30,366 bases of DNA, taken from a virus. The stretch spans positions 1 through 30,366 of IMG/VR virus record IMGVR_UViG_3300025141_016476, one strand, 5' to 3'. The notes below the pieces were generated by a model. That model was not told the origin of the DNA. It was given only the letters and a program-made list of their open reading frames with translations, and ran no database searches. How positions within the stretch are numbered: position 1 is the first letter of the stretch; every line of letters begins with the position of its first letter. Of the stretch, positions 7,009 to 20,106 are shown piece by piece. A program made the translations under genes and the position numbers.

Positions 7009-7410
7009 ATGCCATACAGTAAGTCAGTAATTGATCATTTTGAAAATCCAAGAAATGTCGGCACAATGGATAAAAATGATCCGTCTGTAGGTACAGGTCT
7101 TGTCGGTGCTCCAGCATGTGGTGATGTTATGAGATTACAAATAAAGATAAACGATTCCGGCATTATTGAAGATGTTAAATTTAAAACATTTGGTTGCGGT
7201 AGCGCAATCGCATCAAGTTCATTAATAACAACCTTTGTCAAAGGCAAGTCAATTAAAGATGCAGAAAAAATTAAAAATATTGATATTGCAAAAGAATTAA
7301 ACTTGCCACCTGTCAAAATACATTGTTCTGTTCTAGCAGAAGATGCAATTAAATCTGCTATTGCAGACTATAGAAAGAAGAGAAAAAATGAAGAGACCGA
7401 CATGGGATAA
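7009..7410 (+). CDS. iscU: Iron-sulfur cluster scaffold protein IscU
   Basis: 133 aa; the ATG directly follows the previous stop, with AAAGGAAAA as ribosome site. IscU is the scaffold on which 2Fe-2S clusters are built from IscS-derived sulfur. Every functional residue keeps its E. coli number: Cys37 and Asp39 (PACGD), Cys63 (FGCGSAIASSSL), His105-Cys106 (IHCSVLAEDAI) and the HscA-recognition motif LPPVK (99-103). The N-terminus (YSKSVIDHFENPRNVG) also tracks the proteobacterial protein closely. The last ten residues diverge and overlap the next gene. The protein looks fully competent to work with host IscS and HscA. Local AT content matches the phage, so acquisition is not very recent. Confidence 0.95.
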   Translation: MPYSKSVIDHFENPRNVGTMDKNDPSVGTGLVGAPACGDVMRLQIKINDSGIIEDVKFKTFGCGSAIASSSLITTFVKGKSIKDAEKIKNIDIAKELNLPPVKIHCSVLAEDAIKSAIADYRKKRKNEETDMG

Positions 7411-8090: not shown

Positions 8091-8786
8091 ATGAAATATT
8101 TGATAAATAAAAATATTAAAAATGTAATTAAAGAAACATTAGATTTAAAGAAAGAAAAAATTAACGAAGCTTTGGTAGCACAGCCTAAACAATTTAATAT
8201 TGTTACAGATGCGTTAAGTGCTGATAATAAGGCAAATCATGTTGAGCTATACAAAGATTATGTTGAAAATTTTAATCTTGCGAATGCTAAATTATCTACA
8301 GCAGATAAGGCAGATGCAAATTCTAATCATTCTGACTATAGATCAATAAAGTTAGATGAAACTTTTAATATGAATGGCGCATATTTACATGAATTGTTTT
8401 TCGCAAATATAGGTGGTGCAAATTCCAACATAACGATGGATTCTTTATCATATATGAGATTAAGTAGAGACTTTGGTACTTTTGATGATTGGCAAAGAGA
8501 TTTTATAGCATGTGCAAATAGTTCAAGAAATGGTTGGGCCATTACTTATCTTAATTTGTTTACACAAACTTATATGAATTGTTTTATTGATCTTCATTCT
8601 AAAAACGTTCCCGCGGGAATGTATCCTGTTATAGTCGTTGATATGTGGCAACATTCATTCTATAAAGACTATTTAAAAAATTCACAAAAATACTTGACTG
8701 CAATGATGCGTGAATTAAAATGGAGCATTATTGAAAATAGATTTCAAAAGGCTGATAAAATTTTACAAGTTATTAGGGGGTTATAA
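8091..8786 (+). CDS. Fe/Mn superoxide dismutase-like protein with basic N-terminal extension
   Basis: 231 aa from ATG 8091 (GAGATAG upstream). Residues 45-220 follow the Fe/Mn SOD fold. All four metal ligands are at family spacing: H50 (NHVELYKDYVENFN, like HHxxYVxxLN), H100 (AYLHELFFANIGG, like NHxxFW), D184 and H188 (DMWQHSFYKDYLKN, like DVWEHAYYxDYxN). DFGTFDDWQRDF and NGWA are also conserved. The dimer-bridging Glu of WEH is Gln187. Residue 96, four before H100, is Gly as in MnSOD, and the HSKN at 169 may supply an outer-sphere His as in archaeal Fe-SODs. Residues 1-26 are a basic helix ending I-N-E before Ala27, like T4 internal-protein targeting peptides (FINE/A). It overlaps an acidic core-like gene by 1 bp. 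Enzymatic activity versus structural reuse is unresolved. Confidence 0.75.
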   Translation: MKYLINKNIKNVIKETLDLKKEKINEALVAQPKQFNIVTDALSADNKANHVELYKDYVENFNLANAKLSTADKADANSNHSDYRSIKLDETFNMNGAYLHELFFANIGGANSNITMDSLSYMRLSRDFGTFDDWQRDFIACANSSRNGWAITYLNLFTQTYMNCFIDLHSKNVPAGMYPVIVVDMWQHSFYKDYLKNSQKYLTAMMRELKWSIIENRFQKADKILQVIRGL

Positions 8787-9445
8787 TGAGAAATACAAAC
8801 ATATATGGCTTATTATTTGAACAAGAAAAAGAAAAAAAATCTGCGCCTGAAGATCCTGTATCTATCAAAGAGCCTAGTGTAAAAGCCCGACCTTCTAATG
8901 ATTCTGTTGATGATCAAATAGATTCTTTGCTGCTTAGATACGAAAATTCTTCTATTAGGGAAGAAGATAAGTCATCGTTAAACGAATCATTAAATAGATT
9001 AAATTTGCGCTTTCTTTTTGAGCAAGATGAAGAGTTTGAAGATGAAGAGTTTGAAGATGAAGGCGGGGATGAAGATGAAGGCGGGGATGAAGATACAGGT
9101 GGCGGTGACTCACCAGCAGGAAGTGAAGACATGACTGTGTCAGATCCTGCAAAAAATCAAAATATTCCACCTTTAGATGTTGATGCATTTGCAAATCGAG
9201 TTGTTCGTTTAATAATGAATTACAAAAATCTTCTAAATATAGAGGAAGCAATAGTAAATAGAGCAAAGAACTTTCTTGATGAAAATTACGGTGACGAATT
9301 TGTCAATAAGTATTTAAATATTCTTAGTGAAGAGCATGGAATATCAGCAAAAGAGTTCGGAAATGTAAAATATGCAGAAGATGATAATTTTGCTATTGGG
9401 GCAAACCCAGCCGGATCTGGAATGACAGGCGGCGGAGGAGCTTAA
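8786..9445 (+). CDS. Acidic, probably virion-core protein with L-x-E-Q motifs
   Basis: 219 aa; the ATG overlaps the SOD-like stop (TAATG). Short N-terminus ending in LLFE (9-12) then Q-E-K, a low-complexity Ser/Pro/Asp stretch, a second LFEQDEE at 77-83, and a run of Asp/Glu/Gly repeats (84-107). A folded helical part follows (VDAFANRVVRLIMNYKNLLNIEEAIVNRAKNFL... broken by NYGDEF), ending in a Gly-rich tail. Acidic, repeat-bearing proteins with L/I-x-E sites are typical of T4-type prohead core proteins, so I infer a scaffold or internal virion role. No homologue is recognised. Confidence 0.65.
   Translation: MRNTNIYGLLFEQEKEKKSAPEDPVSIKEPSVKARPSNDSVDDQIDSLLLRYENSSIREEDKSSLNESLNRLNLRFLFEQDEEFEDEEFEDEGGDEDEGGDEDTGGGDSPAGSEDMTVSDPAKNQNIPPLDVDAFANRVVRLIMNYKNLLNIEEAIVNRAKNFLDENYGDEFVNKYLNILSEEHGISAKEFGNVKYAEDDNFAIGANPAGSGMTGGGGA
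9026..9091 (+). repeat. Two adjacent in-frame tandem repeats (2 x 15 bp, 2 x 18 bp) coding acidic residues
   Basis: GATGAAGAGTTTGAA occurs twice in a row (9026-9055), coding DEEFE twice. It is followed by two copies of an 18-bp unit (9056-9091) coding DEGGDE. Copies are identical at the DNA level, pointing to recent slippage or duplication and to likely length variation between relatives. Confidence 0.85.
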
Positions 9446-9446
9446 T

Positions 9447-9728
9447 TTGTCAAAACATGATTTTTTTACAAAAAAATCTGTTCATTTTAATCTTTCAAAA
9501 GATGCACATGGATCATTTAGGATTGCATGCTTCGAAAGAGGCCTATCAATGCAAGAAGTTGTAGAAGAATTTGTTCAAAGAATACTTTCGCAAAACCCAC
9601 ATATTTTAAAATTATTAGATGAAGTTGCTGAAAATAAAAAGAATAAGGCAGAAAAAAAGTTTTCTAAGTCTGACGTTGAATCAATATTTAGCTTATTAGA
9701 GGATGAAGATCCCTTAAAGGAGAAGTAA
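9447..9728 (+). CDS. Ribbon-helix-helix-like small protein
   Basis: 93 aa with a TTG start and a very strong ribosome site (GGAGGAG, 9434-9440). Residues 8-50 (KKSVHFNLSKDAHGSFRIACFERGLSMQEVVEEFVQRIL) have the order of a ribbon-helix-helix domain: a short basic strand V-x-F-N-L, then helix, G-L-S turn, and second helix, as in Arc/MetJ-type proteins. The C-terminal half is charged (NKKNKAEKKFSKSDVESIF...). An RHH dimer would bind DNA and could regulate phage genes, but its place between core-like and membrane genes gives no target. Fold inferred from pattern only. Confidence 0.6.
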   Translation: MSKHDFFTKKSVHFNLSKDAHGSFRIACFERGLSMQEVVEEFVQRILSQNPHILKLLDEVAENKKNKAEKKFSKSDVESIFSLLEDEDPLKEK

Positions 9729-10824: not shown

Positions 10825-13308
10825 ATGAAAGTAAAAGTTAAAAAAAGCGTATTGTTTAATTTATTAAAACGATATATGAATGAAAATAGAACAAATGATA
10901 ACCCAACTGGTAATTTTATTTCACCTTTAAATAAAGATGAAGATCGATTTGGTTTTTGGGATGAAGATGAAGAAACGAATGTTCCAATATCACCTTCACC
11001 GCATATACCGATTATTTCAGTTGAAGCACCTCCTGTTGAAGACCCGGACTATGTACCTGCATCAACACAAGAGTTAGCATCTGCATTAAATGTTATTTCT
11101 AGAGAAGTACCCATTAATCAAATTGAATATTTTTATAGGAAAATACATAAACTATTAGACGACAGTTTAGACAATAATCAAGAAGATATGCTTAGCGAAG
11201 GAATCAATCTATTAAATGAGTCAGAAACTTTTTCAGATAAGTTAATTCAAAGTGCAATAAATAAAATTCAATCAGGCGAAGATAGAGAAGAAGTTGTATA
11301 TAATTTAATACAAAACTATACTGAGTTTGAGGATTTTGATCCATTTGATTTATTAACAATGATAGAAGATAAAATGATAGGTGGTACGCAAGATCAAGAA
11401 TCAAATGTCATAGACGACTTTGGCGGCGCGAGTACACAAAAAACAGGTTCCGGAACAATTCCAATGAAACCTGACGCCCCCCAGCCTCAACACCCAATAG
11501 GCGCAGATAAAAAAAAGCAAGATTCTTTACGATTAGATGTTCCAATGGCAAAAGAGCCAATTTTAAAAAAAGCGCTGCATGAAGATCCTGTTATAGACTT
11601 TATTGCACAAACCCATGATCTTTTATTTGACATATCTAGAAGGGTAGAACGTGAGTATTTTGAGTCTCATTTTACAGAGCAAGGGCAGGAAGCTCAACGT
11701 ATGGGATTATCACTTGATAGGATTAATCAAGCAACAAAAAAGTATGGTATAACAAATGATTTTGTTTTTACGCATCTTAATTTAACAAAGAAAAAAGGCG
11801 GAGCTTATGTTTTTGACAGTAAAAAAGTTCAAAGTGAAATTGAAAAATTTATTAGAAACTATGCAGATCTACCTGAGGGTTCTGATTATAACAACCTCTT
11901 AGATTCAGCTGCTTCTGAAATGAAATTACCTCGCGAGCGTGCAATTCCATTCCTTTCAAGACTTTTAACAAAAAAATACGATCAAGAACGTGACTCATAT
12001 CAAGATATTCCAGCAGATGAATATCTTGTTGGCCGAGAAGGAAAAATTGGTGAAATTGAAAAGTTGTTTTCAATTGTTGTAAAACACCCACCTTATGATT
12101 TTACACAGTTGTCTGGAGATAGATCAGACTTTATGAATAGAGCATCGCAGGATTTAGTTGAACCGATAATTGAAGACATGCTAGCTAAGATTCAGAAAAG
12201 AATGTCCGGCGAAAATTATATATTTAAGATTGGAAAGCACATCCATCAGTACCCAGTAGAGCATGTTAAAAATGAAATTAGCACCTTTGTTCAAGTAAAA
12301 ATTGATGGCGCGCTAGCTTTCCAGGAAGAAAAAAGAGCAAGAAAAGCACAAGACAAAGAAGACTCCAAAGTTGGTAATGCTATAAGTGATGAAGACGCAG
12401 CTGCCGCGGCATTTGCTAAGAAAATTGCAAAATTAAGCAATACAACAAATTTTGATAATCTTGCACCCTTCTTTGGTTTCTCAAGTGCTTCTGGTCTTAG
12501 ACAGTGGTATCTAAAACATGCTATGAGAAAAATAAAAGCGCTAGGTGTAGGAAAAGATACAGGAAAGTCTGCATTTTCCAAGCTTTATAATCAGACGCTA
12601 GAAGCAATTATTCCATACATTGTAGAAGCTATTGAATTAAAAATAAACGAATTTAATGGAAATCCTGGTTTAGGTGAGCAAGATCAACAAAAACTATTAA
12701 TTATGAAACATGCTTTACCTCAGATTAAACAAATAGACGATTTGATGCAAGATGGTCGCTACTTAAGACCAAATGAAGAAGGCACAGTTGAAGGACAAGA
12801 TTTGTTATATTCAGTAGGCGGGTATATTATGAGAACTGTAAATGGTGAAATATACAAACCTATTATGAATTTGATAGACAGGCAATGGACAGATTTTGTT
12901 GCCGGCCTAATTCAAGATAAAGCACAAGTTGATTTAAAAAAGGCAAAAAGCCTGGCAGAGTATTTTACAGGAAAAAAAGAGATACCAAATTACGAGTCAA
13001 TGACAAAAGCGGCAAAAAATCTACTAAATGCAGGCATTGATTTTGAATTGTTTGAAGTACTAATTAGCGCATCAAACGACTGGTTTGACGATACAATAGA
13101 AACAGAATTTTCAAAATTTAATACAGCAGAGGATAAGTTTGCTGGTGAATTTTTACAAGCCGCATTAAAAACTACTGAAAAGCTTGTTAAAAAACCAAAT
13201 GAGATGAAAAAGTATCTAGATAAAGCAGTTAATATGTACATAGAAGATTTAGCACATCAAATTGCATTTAAAAATTTAAGTCAATATGAGACTATAAGCG
13301 GTGATTAA
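10825..13308 (+). CDS. Large hypothetical, probable virion-associated protein (827 aa)
   Basis: The largest gene in the window; ATG preceded by AAAGGATC. The N-terminus is basic and amphipathic (MKVKVKKSVLFNLLKRYMNENR) and contains M-N-E at 18-20. About 30-260 is acidic and low in structure, with Pro-rich parts (PMKPDAPQPQHPIGADKKK). The remainder is long, helical, charged and soluble, with no recognisable catalytic motif, signal or membrane segment. The position among acidic core-like proteins and the CTS-like N-terminus suggest an internal head protein, scaffold or packaged protein. I recognise no family. Confidence 0.6.
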   Translation: MKVKVKKSVLFNLLKRYMNENRTNDNPTGNFISPLNKDEDRFGFWDEDEETNVPISPSPHIPIISVEAPPVEDPDYVPASTQELASALNVISREVPINQIEYFYRKIHKLLDDSLDNNQEDMLSEGINLLNESETFSDKLIQSAINKIQSGEDREEVVYNLIQNYTEFEDFDPFDLLTMIEDKMIGGTQDQESNVIDDFGGASTQKTGSGTIPMKPDAPQPQHPIGADKKKQDSLRLDVPMAKEPILKKALHEDPVIDFIAQTHDLLFDISRRVEREYFESHFTEQGQEAQRMGLSLDRINQATKKYGITNDFVFTHLNLTKKKGGAYVFDSKKVQSEIEKFIRNYADLPEGSDYNNLLDSAASEMKLPRERAIPFLSRLLTKKYDQERDSYQDIPADEYLVGREGKIGEIEKLFSIVVKHPPYDFTQLSGDRSDFMNRASQDLVEPIIEDMLAKIQKRMSGENYIFKIGKHIHQYPVEHVKNEISTFVQVKIDGALAFQEEKRARKAQDKEDSKVGNAISDEDAAAAAFAKKIAKLSNTTNFDNLAPFFGFSSASGLRQWYLKHAMRKIKALGVGKDTGKSAFSKLYNQTLEAIIPYIVEAIELKINEFNGNPGLGEQDQQKLLIMKHALPQIKQIDDLMQDGRYLRPNEEGTVEGQDLLYSVGGYIMRTVNGEIYKPIMNLIDRQWTDFVAGLIQDKAQVDLKKAKSLAEYFTGKKEIPNYESMTKAAKNLLNAGIDFELFEVLISASNDWFDDTIETEFSKFNTAEDKFAGEFLQAALKTTEKLVKKPNEMKKYLDKAVNMYIEDLAHQIAFKNLSQYETISGD

Positions 13309-14128: not shown

Positions 14129-14866
14129 ATGATCAATGCCAGAAGCGAAAAAGAATTACTTAAAATATTAAAAATGATATCTGAAGAATCTGTCAGCTTA
14201 TCAAGAAAAAGCTTGTATGAAACAATAGACCCATATGAAGAAGAATATAAATCAAAATATAAAATGGATCAAAAGCTTTATGGTTCTTTAAGTGAGCAAG
14301 AAGACGAAGAAGACGAAGAAGTAGAAGAAGAGGAAGAGGAAGAAGAGGAAGAAGTAGAAGAGGAAGAAGTAGAAGAGGAAGAAGTAGAAGAGGAAGAAGA
14401 GGAAGAAGAACATGAAGATGCATCAGAAGCTTTTGGTGTTTCGTTTGATTCTGTTATAACAGCAATTAATGCTCTTCGTGCAGGTAGGTCATTAAAAGAT
14501 GCATCAATCAAACAACAAGCTTCTGCTTATTATGACAAGCTTGACGATAATGAAAGAAAAATTTTACTTTTATTTTTAAAAGAACTTTCTAAGATCTTGT
14601 CCGGTTCATTAAAGGGTGCTGAGGCTGCAGAACCAAGCGATGATCCATACGAGTTTTCAATATCGTCTGGTGATGATGATATTGATGTTGGTGAAGATGA
14701 AGAGGAAGAAGACATCGATCTTGGCGACGAAGAGGAAGATTTAGAAGTAGAAGAAGAAGAAGAAGATGAAGAGGAAGAAGAAATATCCCCGCCGATTCAA
14801 GTTAGTGAATCAAAAACTACGTCATTGATGAGAAAAAAAATTAGAAAAATGATGTTAAGAGGTTAA
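14129..14866 (+). CDS. Highly acidic, probable prohead core/scaffold protein
   Basis: 245 aa from ATG 14129 with TTGGAG 6 nt upstream; an in-frame TTG at 14117 overlaps that site and is rejected. The N-terminus is a helix (SEKELLKILKMISEES) with possible sites I-S-E, L-Y-E (29-31) and L-S-E-Q-E-D (54-59). About 45 residues of almost pure Glu/Asp/Val follow, then a helical domain (SFDSVITAINALRAG... DDNERKILLLFLKELSKIL), a second acidic tract, and a basic tail (TTSLMRKKIRKMMLRG). Charge pattern and cleavage-like motifs recall T4 prohead core proteins such as gp22, gp67 and gp68. No direct homology is claimed. Confidence 0.65.
   Translation: MINARSEKELLKILKMISEESVSLSRKSLYETIDPYEEEYKSKYKMDQKLYGSLSEQEDEEDEEVEEEEEEEEEEVEEEEVEEEEVEEEEEEEEHEDASEAFGVSFDSVITAINALRAGRSLKDASIKQQASAYYDKLDDNERKILLLFLKELSKILSGSLKGAEAAEPSDDPYEFSISSGDDDIDVGEDEEEEDIDLGDEEEDLEVEEEEEDEEEEEISPPIQVSESKTTSLMRKKIRKMMLRG
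14297..14412 (+). repeat. Purine-only GAA/GAG/GTA low-complexity tract with a 15-bp tandem unit
   Basis: The tract codes nearly pure Glu with regularly placed Val. In its second half a 15-bp unit coding EEVEE repeats about three times in register (roughly 14343-14395). The opposite strand is open over this tract only because it reads as Ser/Leu repeats. Copy number is likely to vary between relatives. Confidence 0.85.
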
Positions 14867-14869
14867 AAA

Positions 14870-15943
14870 ATGTCAGTAAAGATTAGAAAGAATATTAGAA
14901 AGGCCATTTTTGAAAATGCGCTCAAAAAGTCTGATCTTTTATCTGAGGCTATAGCAGTTGATTATGCTAATCCTGCAAAAAGCATGATGAAGTGGGAAAT
15001 GGAAAGACAAAAATGTAACATAACAGAAGCTACACTTCCTGATGATTTTTTGGCAATATTTTTTGGAGATCAACTTTTATCACCTGCTGGATTTGAAATT
15101 CGTGAAAAAGGAATTCTTGACGATATGGCCAGTCAAGATGTCTTATTATCAAAAATACAGGTTGCAAAAACTAAAAAAATGAATATAAATAGAATATCTC
15201 CTATGCTTGGTAATATTGTAAGAAAAACAATATCAAAAGCAATAGATCTATTTTTTCCGGGCCCTTTTGCAAAATTCTTTTGCAATCAATTGGCAACTAC
15301 TGCAACGTGGTTTAAGAAAAATATGGCTATTTGGGCTGTTATTTTTGGTGACGCAGATACAATAGAAGATGCAGAAAAAGCCCAAAAGGAAAAAACAGGA
15401 CTTGCAGATCCGCAACAGTCAGTAGATTTAACAAAAATTATCGATTCATGTTATAAGAAAGTATCGAAACATGAATATGTGCCATATGCAAGATTAAATG
15501 TAGCAGATAAACACAGTGACGTACTCATGCTTTTTCAATTAACATGTCAGACTTTGCAAGGAAGTGATACGCAAAAAGATGTTACTGATCTTTATGAAAA
15601 AGAAACAAAACTAGCGTATGCAAAGGGAAATAATAGCTTAATGTCAAGAAGCACATTTTTTCAAAATGAATTTTTAAAAATAGCATTTAAAAATACAACA
15701 ACAAACACAGCAAATAATGCAATAAGGTTATGCAAAGTTGAAATTGGACAAGTAAATTCCATACTCGATGGTTTAGATGCAATAACACTGGTTGAAGTTA
15801 ATATGGAAATAATTCAGAATTTTGTTGCAAGGGTTAAAAATGCAAAATATTATCTTGAAAAGATATATGCTAGAAGTACCCCAGATGGGGGAGCTATTAT
15901 TAGCGCAATAAAATCCCCCACAGGTAAACTAATCGGTATTTAA
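14870..15943 (+). CDS. Hypothetical virion/internal-type protein (357 aa)
   Basis: ATG 3 bp after the acidic core-like gene. A very basic N-terminal helix (MSVKIRKNIRKAIFENALKK) is followed by DLLSEAIAV, so the L-S-E before Ala27 fits the L/I-x-E processing pattern and layout of capsid-targeting peptides. The rest is helical with several hydrophobic patches (IDLFFPGPFAKFFCNQLATTATWF; MAIWAVIFGDADTI). These are too short and too polar to call membrane spans confidently. No domain is recognised. Context suggests an internal head or assembly protein. The last gene before an 87-bp AT-rich gap, so a transcription unit may end here. Confidence 0.6.
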   Translation: MSVKIRKNIRKAIFENALKKSDLLSEAIAVDYANPAKSMMKWEMERQKCNITEATLPDDFLAIFFGDQLLSPAGFEIREKGILDDMASQDVLLSKIQVAKTKKMNINRISPMLGNIVRKTISKAIDLFFPGPFAKFFCNQLATTATWFKKNMAIWAVIFGDADTIEDAEKAQKEKTGLADPQQSVDLTKIIDSCYKKVSKHEYVPYARLNVADKHSDVLMLFQLTCQTLQGSDTQKDVTDLYEKETKLAYAKGNNSLMSRSTFFQNEFLKIAFKNTTTNTANNAIRLCKVEIGQVNSILDGLDAITLVEVNMEIIQNFVARVKNAKYYLEKIYARSTPDGGAIISAIKSPTGKLIGI

Positions 15944-16429: not shown

Positions 16430-16957
16430 ATGAAAATTAATATCAATAGAATGTGTAAATTAGCAGGGGTTGGTACTAGCCAGTCTAGAAGATCTAATGG
16501 TTTGCTTAGAGAGGGATCTAATAGTTCTTTTAGGGATGATCCTAGCTATAGAGATGAAGCTGAGTTTCGATTTGGCAGAGGACAATTAAATGAACAAGAT
16601 GATGACTTTGTTGATGATTCAGAAATGGATGATTTACCTCTTGATGAAGAAGTCGTCATGGATGACGAAATGGCCGAAGGCGAAGACGAGCTCGAGGTTG
16701 ACGAAGCAATGCTTGTTCAAGAACTCAGAAGGGCCAAGAGAATTGTAAATGAGTCTAGAAAGCACAGGCGCAGACAACTTTCTGAAAATGCAAAATTACA
16801 AAGAATCATTGAAGAAGAAGTTGCAAATGTAATGCATGACTATAACTATAATTCACAATGGCTTTACGGAAAAAGAAAGCCAAGAAGAAGTAGAAACGGC
16901 TATACTGCACAAGGTTCATATATTCCAGGTATTGGCTTTAAAAATCCTTGGGAATAA
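16430..16957 (+). CDS. Acidic/basic two-part probable virion-core protein
   Basis: 175 aa with GTGGAGG upstream of ATG 16430. The N-terminus (MKININRMCKLAGVGTSQSR) leads to L-L-R-E-G (25-29), then a polar Arg/Ser/Asp stretch and L-N-E-Q-D-D-D at 53-59, the same L-x-E-Q-acid signature as in the proteins at 8786 and 14129. Residues 57-95 are very acidic. The C-terminal half is basic and helical (LRRAKRIVNESRKHRRRQL), ending in a Tyr/Gly/Pro-rich tail (YTAQGSYIPGIGFKNPWE). It looks like a scaffold or core protein whose acidic part may be released by proteolysis; this is inference from motif and composition. Confidence 0.65.
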   Translation: MKININRMCKLAGVGTSQSRRSNGLLREGSNSSFRDDPSYRDEAEFRFGRGQLNEQDDDFVDDSEMDDLPLDEEVVMDDEMAEGEDELEVDEAMLVQELRRAKRIVNESRKHRRRQLSENAKLQRIIEEEVANVMHDYNYNSQWLYGKRKPRRSRNGYTAQGSYIPGIGFKNPWE

Positions 16958-18510: not shown

Positions 18511-20106
18511 ATGTCATTGACAAAAAGAATAATAGTAGATGGTGATGAACTTACTAGTAAGCTTAAGCGCGGCATAGACAAGTTAGCAAACACTGTTAAA
18601 ACTACAATGGGACCAAAAGGAAAACTAGTATTAATTCAAAGACCTGGTAATCATCCAATTGTTACAAAAGATGGAGTTACAGTTGCAAATGCAATTAATC
18701 TTCAAGATGAGGTTGAAAACTTAGCAGCACAAATTATTAAAGAAGCGGCTGCTAGAACAGCAGACGAGGCAGGCGATGGAACAACCACAGCAACAGTTTT
18801 GGCACAATCAATTTATACTGAAGGTCTAAAGATGATTGCTGCTGGATTTGACATTGTAGGCATAAAAAAAGGAATTAATATTGCAGTTTCTACTGTAATT
18901 GATAAAATTAATAATTCAGCTCGCAAAGTTAAAAGTAGTAATGATTTAATGAAAGTTGCATTAATTTCAGCAAATGGCGAAAACGATATTGCAAAACTTA
19001 TTGTTGATGCAATTGATACCGCCGGCGTCGATGGAAATATTATAGTTGAAGAAGCAAAAGGTTTTAAAAGTAGTTTAACTATTGTTGAAGGCTATCAAGT
19101 TGATCGTGGGTTTCTGTCTCCGTATTTTGTAACAGATAAAAATAAAATGACTTGTAATTTTAAAAATCCTTTAATCTTGCTTGCAGATAGAAGTTTTAAT
19201 TCTATTCATGAACTTATGAAACCTTTGGAAATTGCACTCGAGTCTAGTAGGCCTATTTTAGTAGTTGGCAACGATATTGACGGTGATGCTATGCAAGGTT
19301 TAGTTTTAAACAGGGTAAAAGGATCTTTGCAGGTTTGTGCAATAAAGTCACCAGGTTTTGGAGATGCTAGGCATGATTTACTAAACGATTTACAAGCAGT
19401 CGTTGGTGGAAAAGTAATTACAAATTCGTTTGATATGCAGTCATATGACATAGAAATGTTTGGAACTTGTAAAAATGCAATGATTGGTAAGTCATCTACA
19501 CTGTTTATAAATGATTCAAAAATTGATGAAAAGAAAGCGCCTGATGAAAGAATTAATATAATCAAAGAATTCTTAAAAAGTCCAGGATTGTCACCAAATG
19601 AAAAAGAATTATTAACTTATAGAATGAACCAGCTTTCAGGCGGTATTGCAATTCTTAGAGTGGGTGCAGCAACAGAGTCTGAGCTAATAGAACGATACGA
19701 TAGAGTTGATGATGCGCTTAATGCTACAAAAGCTGCAATTCAAGAAGGTATACTACCTGGCGGAGGTGTTGCATTGGCAAAAATTTCCAAGGATTTAGAA
19801 AAACTATTAGAATCATATGACTCTGATGTTTCTGCAGGTATAAGAATTATATCAAAAGCGTGCGTATCACCTTTTAATCAGATAGTTTTAAATGGAGGAA
19901 AAAGCCCAGAGCTTTTACTTGATACTGTATTAAATTCAAAACCAGATACAGGTTATGATTCTAGAGAAAATAAAACAGGTAATATGTTTGAATTGGGCAT
20001 TGTTGATCCTAAAAAAGTTGTTAGATGTGCAATTGAAAATGCAGCATCAGCATCAAGTATGCTTTTGTCAGCAGGTGCTTCAATGATTGAAATAAGTAAA
20101 AATTAA
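18511..20106 (+). CDS. groEL: Phage-encoded chaperonin GroEL
   Basis: 531 aa, AAAGG before ATG. Group I chaperonin: the nucleotide site is intact, with MGPKGKLVLI (33-42), DGVTVANAI, AGDGTTTATVL (D89 equals E. coli D87), the hinge and stem motif RVDDALNATKAAIQEGILPGGG (with the catalytic Asp equivalent to D398) and NAASASSMLLSAGASMIE at the end. The apical domain (GYQVDRGFLSPYFVTD, DRSFNSIHELMKPLEIA) is complete but diverged. The GGM-repeat tail is absent and the protein ends at the equatorial domain. No GroES-like gene is in the window; it may use host GroES, act alone like some jumbo-phage chaperonins, or pair with a co-chaperonin elsewhere. A role in folding virion proteins is inferred. 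Confidence 0.96.
   Translation: MSLTKRIIVDGDELTSKLKRGIDKLANTVKTTMGPKGKLVLIQRPGNHPIVTKDGVTVANAINLQDEVENLAAQIIKEAAARTADEAGDGTTTATVLAQSIYTEGLKMIAAGFDIVGIKKGINIAVSTVIDKINNSARKVKSSNDLMKVALISANGENDIAKLIVDAIDTAGVDGNIIVEEAKGFKSSLTIVEGYQVDRGFLSPYFVTDKNKMTCNFKNPLILLADRSFNSIHELMKPLEIALESSRPILVVGNDIDGDAMQGLVLNRVKGSLQVCAIKSPGFGDARHDLLNDLQAVVGGKVITNSFDMQSYDIEMFGTCKNAMIGKSSTLFINDSKIDEKKAPDERINIIKEFLKSPGLSPNEKELLTYRMNQLSGGIAILRVGAATESELIERYDRVDDALNATKAAIQEGILPGGGVALAKISKDLEKLLESYDSDVSAGIRIISKACVSPFNQIVLNGGKSPELLLDTVLNSKPDTGYDSRENKTGNMFELGIVDPKKVVRCAIENAASASSMLLSAGASMIEISKN

Follow-up and report, generated by a model that had tools for sequence, protein, structure and literature searches.

The stretch of DNA analysed here, which we call the window, is a viral record of 30,366 bases. 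Longer viral records, G001 (141 kb) and G004 (202 kb) included, are colinear with it. At positions 8091–8786 of the + strand it carries an intact open reading frame for the precursor of an Fe/Mn superoxide dismutase (SOD) of 231 amino acids, an assignment that draws on the ATG start, Pfam, a match to the solved structure 1coj, fold searches and 73 distinct viral homologues. The precursor divides into a predicted propeptide of residues 1–26 (MKYLINKNIKNVIKETLDLKKEKINE; 8091–8168, + strand) and a predicted mature SOD of residues 27–231 (8169–8783, + strand).

The dismutase fold and the metal site

The first-pass annotation of this DNA had described a complete Fe/Mn SOD-like protein, and the searches bear this out. 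Pfam Sod_Fe_C matches the open reading frame with an E value of 6e-15 and 55.6 bits (gathering cut-off 20.9), and Sod_Fe_N is placed correctly at 18.7 bits, below its gathering cut-off of 27. The top solved relative by sequence is 1coj, the FeSOD of Aquifex pyrophilus (E 1e-29). An AlphaFold2 model of the precursor has a mean pLDDT of 84.6, with low values in the leader region, and in a fold search 1coj was again closest (Z 26.8, r.m.s.d. 1.7 Å over 203 residues). VIA-align pairs residues 27–231 of the model with residues 2–210 of 1coj. Since this alignment opens at residue 27 of the viral protein and at residue 2 of 1coj, what follows Glu26 is a complete SOD and what precedes it is extra.

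A search of viral contigs with the single SOD protein gave 27 relatives; a search from the alignment gave at least 129, of which 80 were kept. Residue and leader counts are based on 73 distinct viral homologues, with 48 cellular relatives for comparison, and all members of the window's SOD group are metagenomic. One branch of a quick tree, with a support of 100, splits 54 viral from 46 cellular sequences; the tree has several long end branches and the sister group of the viral clade is unsettled. PHROGs holds no family for the SOD or for its acidic partner described below, and the annotated phage collection contains no close relative of the window SOD. Some matches in that collection were set aside where the record was short or lacked annotation, or where the surrounding genes were of a bacterial kind.

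The four metal ligands named in the first-pass annotation, His50 (8238–8240), His100 (8388–8390), Asp184 (8640–8642) and His188 (8652–8654; all on the + strand), are as claimed and are each invariant in 73/73 distinct viral homologues. Trp149 and Trp186 are likewise kept in 73/73, the second-shell residue His169 (8595–8597, + strand) in 71/73 and Tyr57 in 70/73. His169 sits at what we take to be the position of Gln146 in E. coli MnSOD and of His145 in M. tuberculosis FeSOD, a placement which suggests that the phage protein is an Fe or cambialistic enzyme. We infer from sequence both the activity and the identity of the metal: the SOD is very probably active, and would be of Fe type or cambialistic. 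The most divergent viral SOD (L028:9962–10657) is without His169 and the gate residue Tyr57 and keeps the four ligands together with an IKE↓S motif (here and below the arrow marks the site of the predicted cut). One residue fewer separates the first ligand His from the gate Tyr (spacing 7). This deletion was considered as a phage-specific feature and rejected, as it was found in 18 of 45 cellular relatives.

Gln187 (8649–8651, + strand) occupies the position at which the WEH motif has its dimer-bridging Glu. The substitution pointed out by the first-pass annotation is real (WQH), but the argument drawn from it, that assembly or metal choice is altered, is a weak one: the residue is Gln in 40 viral sequences, Glu in 32 and Asp in one, against Glu in 47/47 cellular sequences, and it has changed at least four times on the tree. 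By this distribution the Glu-to-Gln replacement is a recurrent variant and not a family signature, and we dropped it as a family-defining change. The bridging Glu is usual in Fe/Mn SODs without being strictly defining. As close relatives with the same site retain Glu, the Gln does not exclude membership of the Fe/Mn SOD family.

The leader and the prohead protease

The gp21 protease of bacteriophage T4 cleaves head proteins after L/I-X-E, T4 internal proteins carry short N-terminal targeting sequences that are removed by gp21, and an N-terminal capsid-targeting sequence is enough for foreign proteins to be packaged in T4 (PMC9026906). The predicted propeptide of the window SOD is a variable leader, absent from cellular relatives and low in pLDDT, which ends in a predicted prohead-protease site, INE↓A (8160–8171, + strand), with the cut between 8168 and 8169. 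The predicted cut, between Glu26 and Ala27, coincides with the start of known SOD chains. The motif [LIVM]xE↓[ASG] stands at the end of the leader in 72/73 viral SODs, against about 2.6 expected from shuffles, a count made on related, not independent, sequences and with a short motif; a version restricted to L/I is present in 67/73. In 71/73 the P1 Glu precedes the first ligand His by exactly 24 residues.

The leader itself drifts. Its length is between 21 and 42 residues in all but one of the viral SODs, the exception being a probable misplaced start, and mean pairwise identity among the 73 sequences is 25% in the leader versus 58% in the mature part. A cleaved propeptide should produce just this pattern, a leader of drifting length before a site that stays put. 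The 48 cellular relatives lack the leader and either start at the SOD domain or bear unrelated N-termini. Earlier, the extra residues had been read as a basic helix ending in I-N-E before Ala. The 26 residues and INE↓A are real; the basic character is confined to the window, whose leader has a net charge of +3 (−7 to +3 across the family, mode 0), and the predicted helix spans residues 7–16 only, with low confidence throughout the leader. A basic leader as the targeting signal was dropped in view of this range of charge. Scored against an N-terminal tag of the MKITRRQLRKLIxE type, a candidate targeting sequence of the same phage group, the leaders have a median of 3.0 compared with −3.3 for shuffled sequences, and the match is good in some leaders only.

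The same start recurs elsewhere. Dozens of unrelated proteins in G001 and G004 (for example at L068, L042, L043 and L037) and in L070 begin with MKITRRQLRKLIxE or near variants, and related records such as G006 instead use MK(I/L)TxxQLRRIIxEE. The former is likely to be a shared capsid-targeting tag. Counted over whole records, N-terminal motifs number 25 versus 8.9 expected in G001, 31 versus 13.1 in G004 and 9 versus 2.2 in the window; in G006 the motif is not enriched genome-wide (19 versus 17.9).

A protease of the gp21 family (Peptidase_S77) is encoded in every one of the 20 SOD-bearing records that reach 137 kb. The window, a 30-kb fragment, ends short of the protease region, and the enzyme is seen in the longer relatives. 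Pfam identifies gp20, gp21 and gp23; in G004 the protease gene lies with those for the gp20 portal and gp23, and the SOD gene is about 79 kb from this cluster. The gp23 proteins have LxE at residue 61 in 61/61 distinct sequences of the group, followed in nearly all by A, Q, S or V. The gp22-like scaffold of G004 has ten motifs where 2.6 are expected.

Genomic neighbourhood and distant phage dismutases

The gene that follows (8786–9445, + strand) encodes an acidic protein. The first-pass annotation had the SOD gene coupled to acidic core-like proteins and proposed a search for the same neighbours in related phages; the two genes do overlap, by one base at 8786, and the acidic partner is found directly 3′ of the SOD gene in most relatives. 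Its N-terminus is often tag-like among relatives, as in MRITAKEIRKIIFE↓Q of L016, and reads GLLFE↓Q in the window. In most relatives the partner is followed by a ribbon-helix-helix (ParG-like) protein, at 9447–9728 in the window, which completes a three-gene block.

Four further genes downstream on the + strand encode proteins with comparable N-termini. The relatives of an 827-residue candidate head protein (10825–13308) have a basic N-terminus that closes with [LM]xE, followed by N or S, and a very acidic core-like protein (14129–14866) has an [LI]xE near residue 30 that is conserved in most relatives. A 357-residue candidate head protein (14870–15943) has LSE↓A at residue 26, and a 175-residue protein (16430–16957) has LRE↓G at residue 28, where [LIVM]xE↓[ASG] is present in 11/13 homologues. 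An N-terminal [LIM]xE is conserved in the relatives of the proteins that start at 10825, 14129 and 16430; for the 357-residue protein the fetched loci gave no homologue.

Upstream of the SOD gene lie nucleotide-metabolism genes, IscU and dCMP deaminase. The IscU-like gene (7009–7410) is a complete Fe-S scaffold gene that scores above the cut-off of the NCBIfam iscU model; it lies directly upstream of the deaminase gene and is found in G004 too. A phage GroEL is encoded at 18511–20106, with homologues in G001, G004 and G006; the T4 head protein requires GroEL. Between 24837 and 27491 are three proteins with hydrophobic N-termini: one lipoprotein-like, one with an HExxHxxGxxH metalloprotease motif and one resembling the thiol-disulfide oxidoreductase ResA. 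The T4 late-promoter-like sequence TATAAATA occurs ten times in the window, with 5.7 expected, and none of these precedes the SOD gene on its strand.

Two distant relatives resemble the window family in being phage-encoded Fe/Mn SODs that keep the metal ligands, in phages that encode an S77 protease. They differ in being only about 23% identical to it. One, EST35_0261 of the cultured jumbo phage PA5oct (L206:4818–5366), is annotated as a 'hypothetical protein', matches Pfam Sod_Fe_C at 1e-21, has IAE↓A at residue 13 and carries the record note ESI-MS/MS. We read this note as a marker of virion proteins since it is borne mainly by structural genes: it stands on the entries for portal, sheath and baseplate and on those named 'structural protein', also on a small number of enzymes (GTP cyclohydrolase and DNA ligase among them), and not on the primase or the homing endonucleases. 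N-terminal motifs occur in 9/54 of the flagged PA5oct proteins versus 4/65 of the others, a difference that is not significant (p = 0.06). The second, from Vibrio phage 2.275.O, has no leader. As this phage also encodes an S77 protease, its SOD indicates that packaging is not a necessary fate of phage SODs.

Proposed role and comparison with known systems

We consider, with a probability of about two in three, that the SOD precursor is a metal-binding and very probably active internal head protein of a widespread T4-like group of large phages, targeted by its leader and trimmed by the prohead protease. What we infer in this is that the SOD is packaged, cleaved and active, together with its metal and its biological role. 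Counting against the reading are the shortness of the motif, the variable and not consistently basic leader, which matches the tag well in some sequences only, the distance of about 79 kb to the gp20–gp23 cluster in G004, the lack of genome-wide enrichment in G006, the non-significant difference in PA5oct and the leaderless SOD of 2.275.O. Residues 1–26 would act as a capsid-targeting propeptide that brings the SOD into the prohead core, where a gp21-type (S77) protease would cut after Glu26 and free the leader, and an SOD of normal length, from Ala27 onward, would stay within the mature head. There it could shield the packaged genome from superoxide, pass into the host together with the DNA as infection begins, or do both. 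Of the earlier suggestion that an SOD-fold protein is packaged in, or built into, the particle, capsid targeting is strongly supported by the comparisons, and the built-in form is the less likely with the ligands and second shell kept.

The gene may instead encode a conventional auxiliary metabolic enzyme: the SOD would act in free form against oxidative stress during infection, and its N-terminal extension would be incidental or have a regulatory function. This seems to us unlikely, yet it is the alternative that survives best. Every active-site residue is conserved, the gene comes after those for nucleotide metabolism, IscU and dCMP deaminase, and other phage SODs, such as that of 2.275.O, are leaderless. 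An incidental extension, however, would not hold [LIVM]xE↓[ASG] at a constant spacing to the active site in 71–72 of 73 sequences while its own length and sequence drift, and the site in the leader matches that of gp23, the major head protein of the same phages. Nor is the gene distributed like a sporadic accessory gene, as it is in every long record. Records selected by gp23 only carry it in 4/4 cases of at least 137 kb, two of which had previously been met through the SOD search, and in 6/12 overall, the shorter records without it probably being fragments. On the strength of those four long records, the SOD looks nearer to a core gene of the T4-like group than to a sporadic auxiliary one.

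Three features would also suit a non-enzymatic head protein of SOD fold with a structural or core role: the predicted processing, which resembles that of head proteins, the conserved association with an acidic core-like protein and the replacement of the bridging Glu by Gln in over half of the sequences. Such a protein we regard as distinctly improbable, given that a purely structural role needs neither the ligands, kept in 73/73, nor His169, Trp149, Trp186 and Tyr57. Least probable of all is that the prohead protease cuts the SOD for some other reason, such as activation or release from an assembly complex, and that the SOD leaves the finished particle: T4 core proteins such as gp22 are indeed cleaved and mostly exit the head (PMC9026906), but scaffold-type proteins have many sites, ten in the gp22-like protein of G004, and the SOD has one, at the exact domain border, which leaves the folded enzyme whole as in T4 internal proteins.

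A broader view can be entertained, although we hold it only tentatively and at somewhat less than even odds: that the T4-like group systematically loads SOD and proteins with related tags into its heads and injects the SOD to disarm superoxide at the onset of infection, the head being an enzyme-delivery capsid with SOD as core cargo. The known internal head proteins of phages are mostly of unknown function or act against the host. A well-understood metabolic enzyme as core processed cargo would clearly exemplify the delivery, by a phage, of ready-made redox chemistry together with the DNA, and the long-open question of what the heads of large phages contain would become testable. It would also imply that superoxide is a routine threat to the T4-like group, either to the packaged DNA or through the response of the host. 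We found no report of an SOD-packaging phage in the open-licence literature.

The SODs that resemble the Aquifex pyrophilus enzyme (1coj) and those of the His145 class, from M. tuberculosis, P. shermanii and archaea, share with the viral family the fold, the ligands and the second-shell His, Trp and Tyr, the window SOD being 30% identical to 1coj. The viral family differs in its added leader of 21–42 residues with a protease site, in forming its own clade (support 100 in the quick tree) and in a bridging Glu that is often Gln.

The chlorovirus PBCV-1 packages an active Cu/Zn SOD, A245R, in its virion (PMC7019647). A virus-encoded, particle-borne SOD is common to both systems, packaging being predicted in the present one. 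A245R differs in belonging to the unrelated Cu/Zn family and to a eukaryotic virus. We know of no prohead-protease leader in A245R.

The T4 internal head proteins IPI, IPII, IPIII and Alt share with the viral SODs a leader that closes with L/I-x-E and is followed by a small residue, and the context is shared as well: a cognate S77 protease and a gp23 with LxE at the matching site. The SOD leaders are longer than that of IPIII (21–42 versus 10 residues). The cargo differs too, being in the viral SODs a recognizable metabolic enzyme, the packaging of which is predicted here from its sequence.
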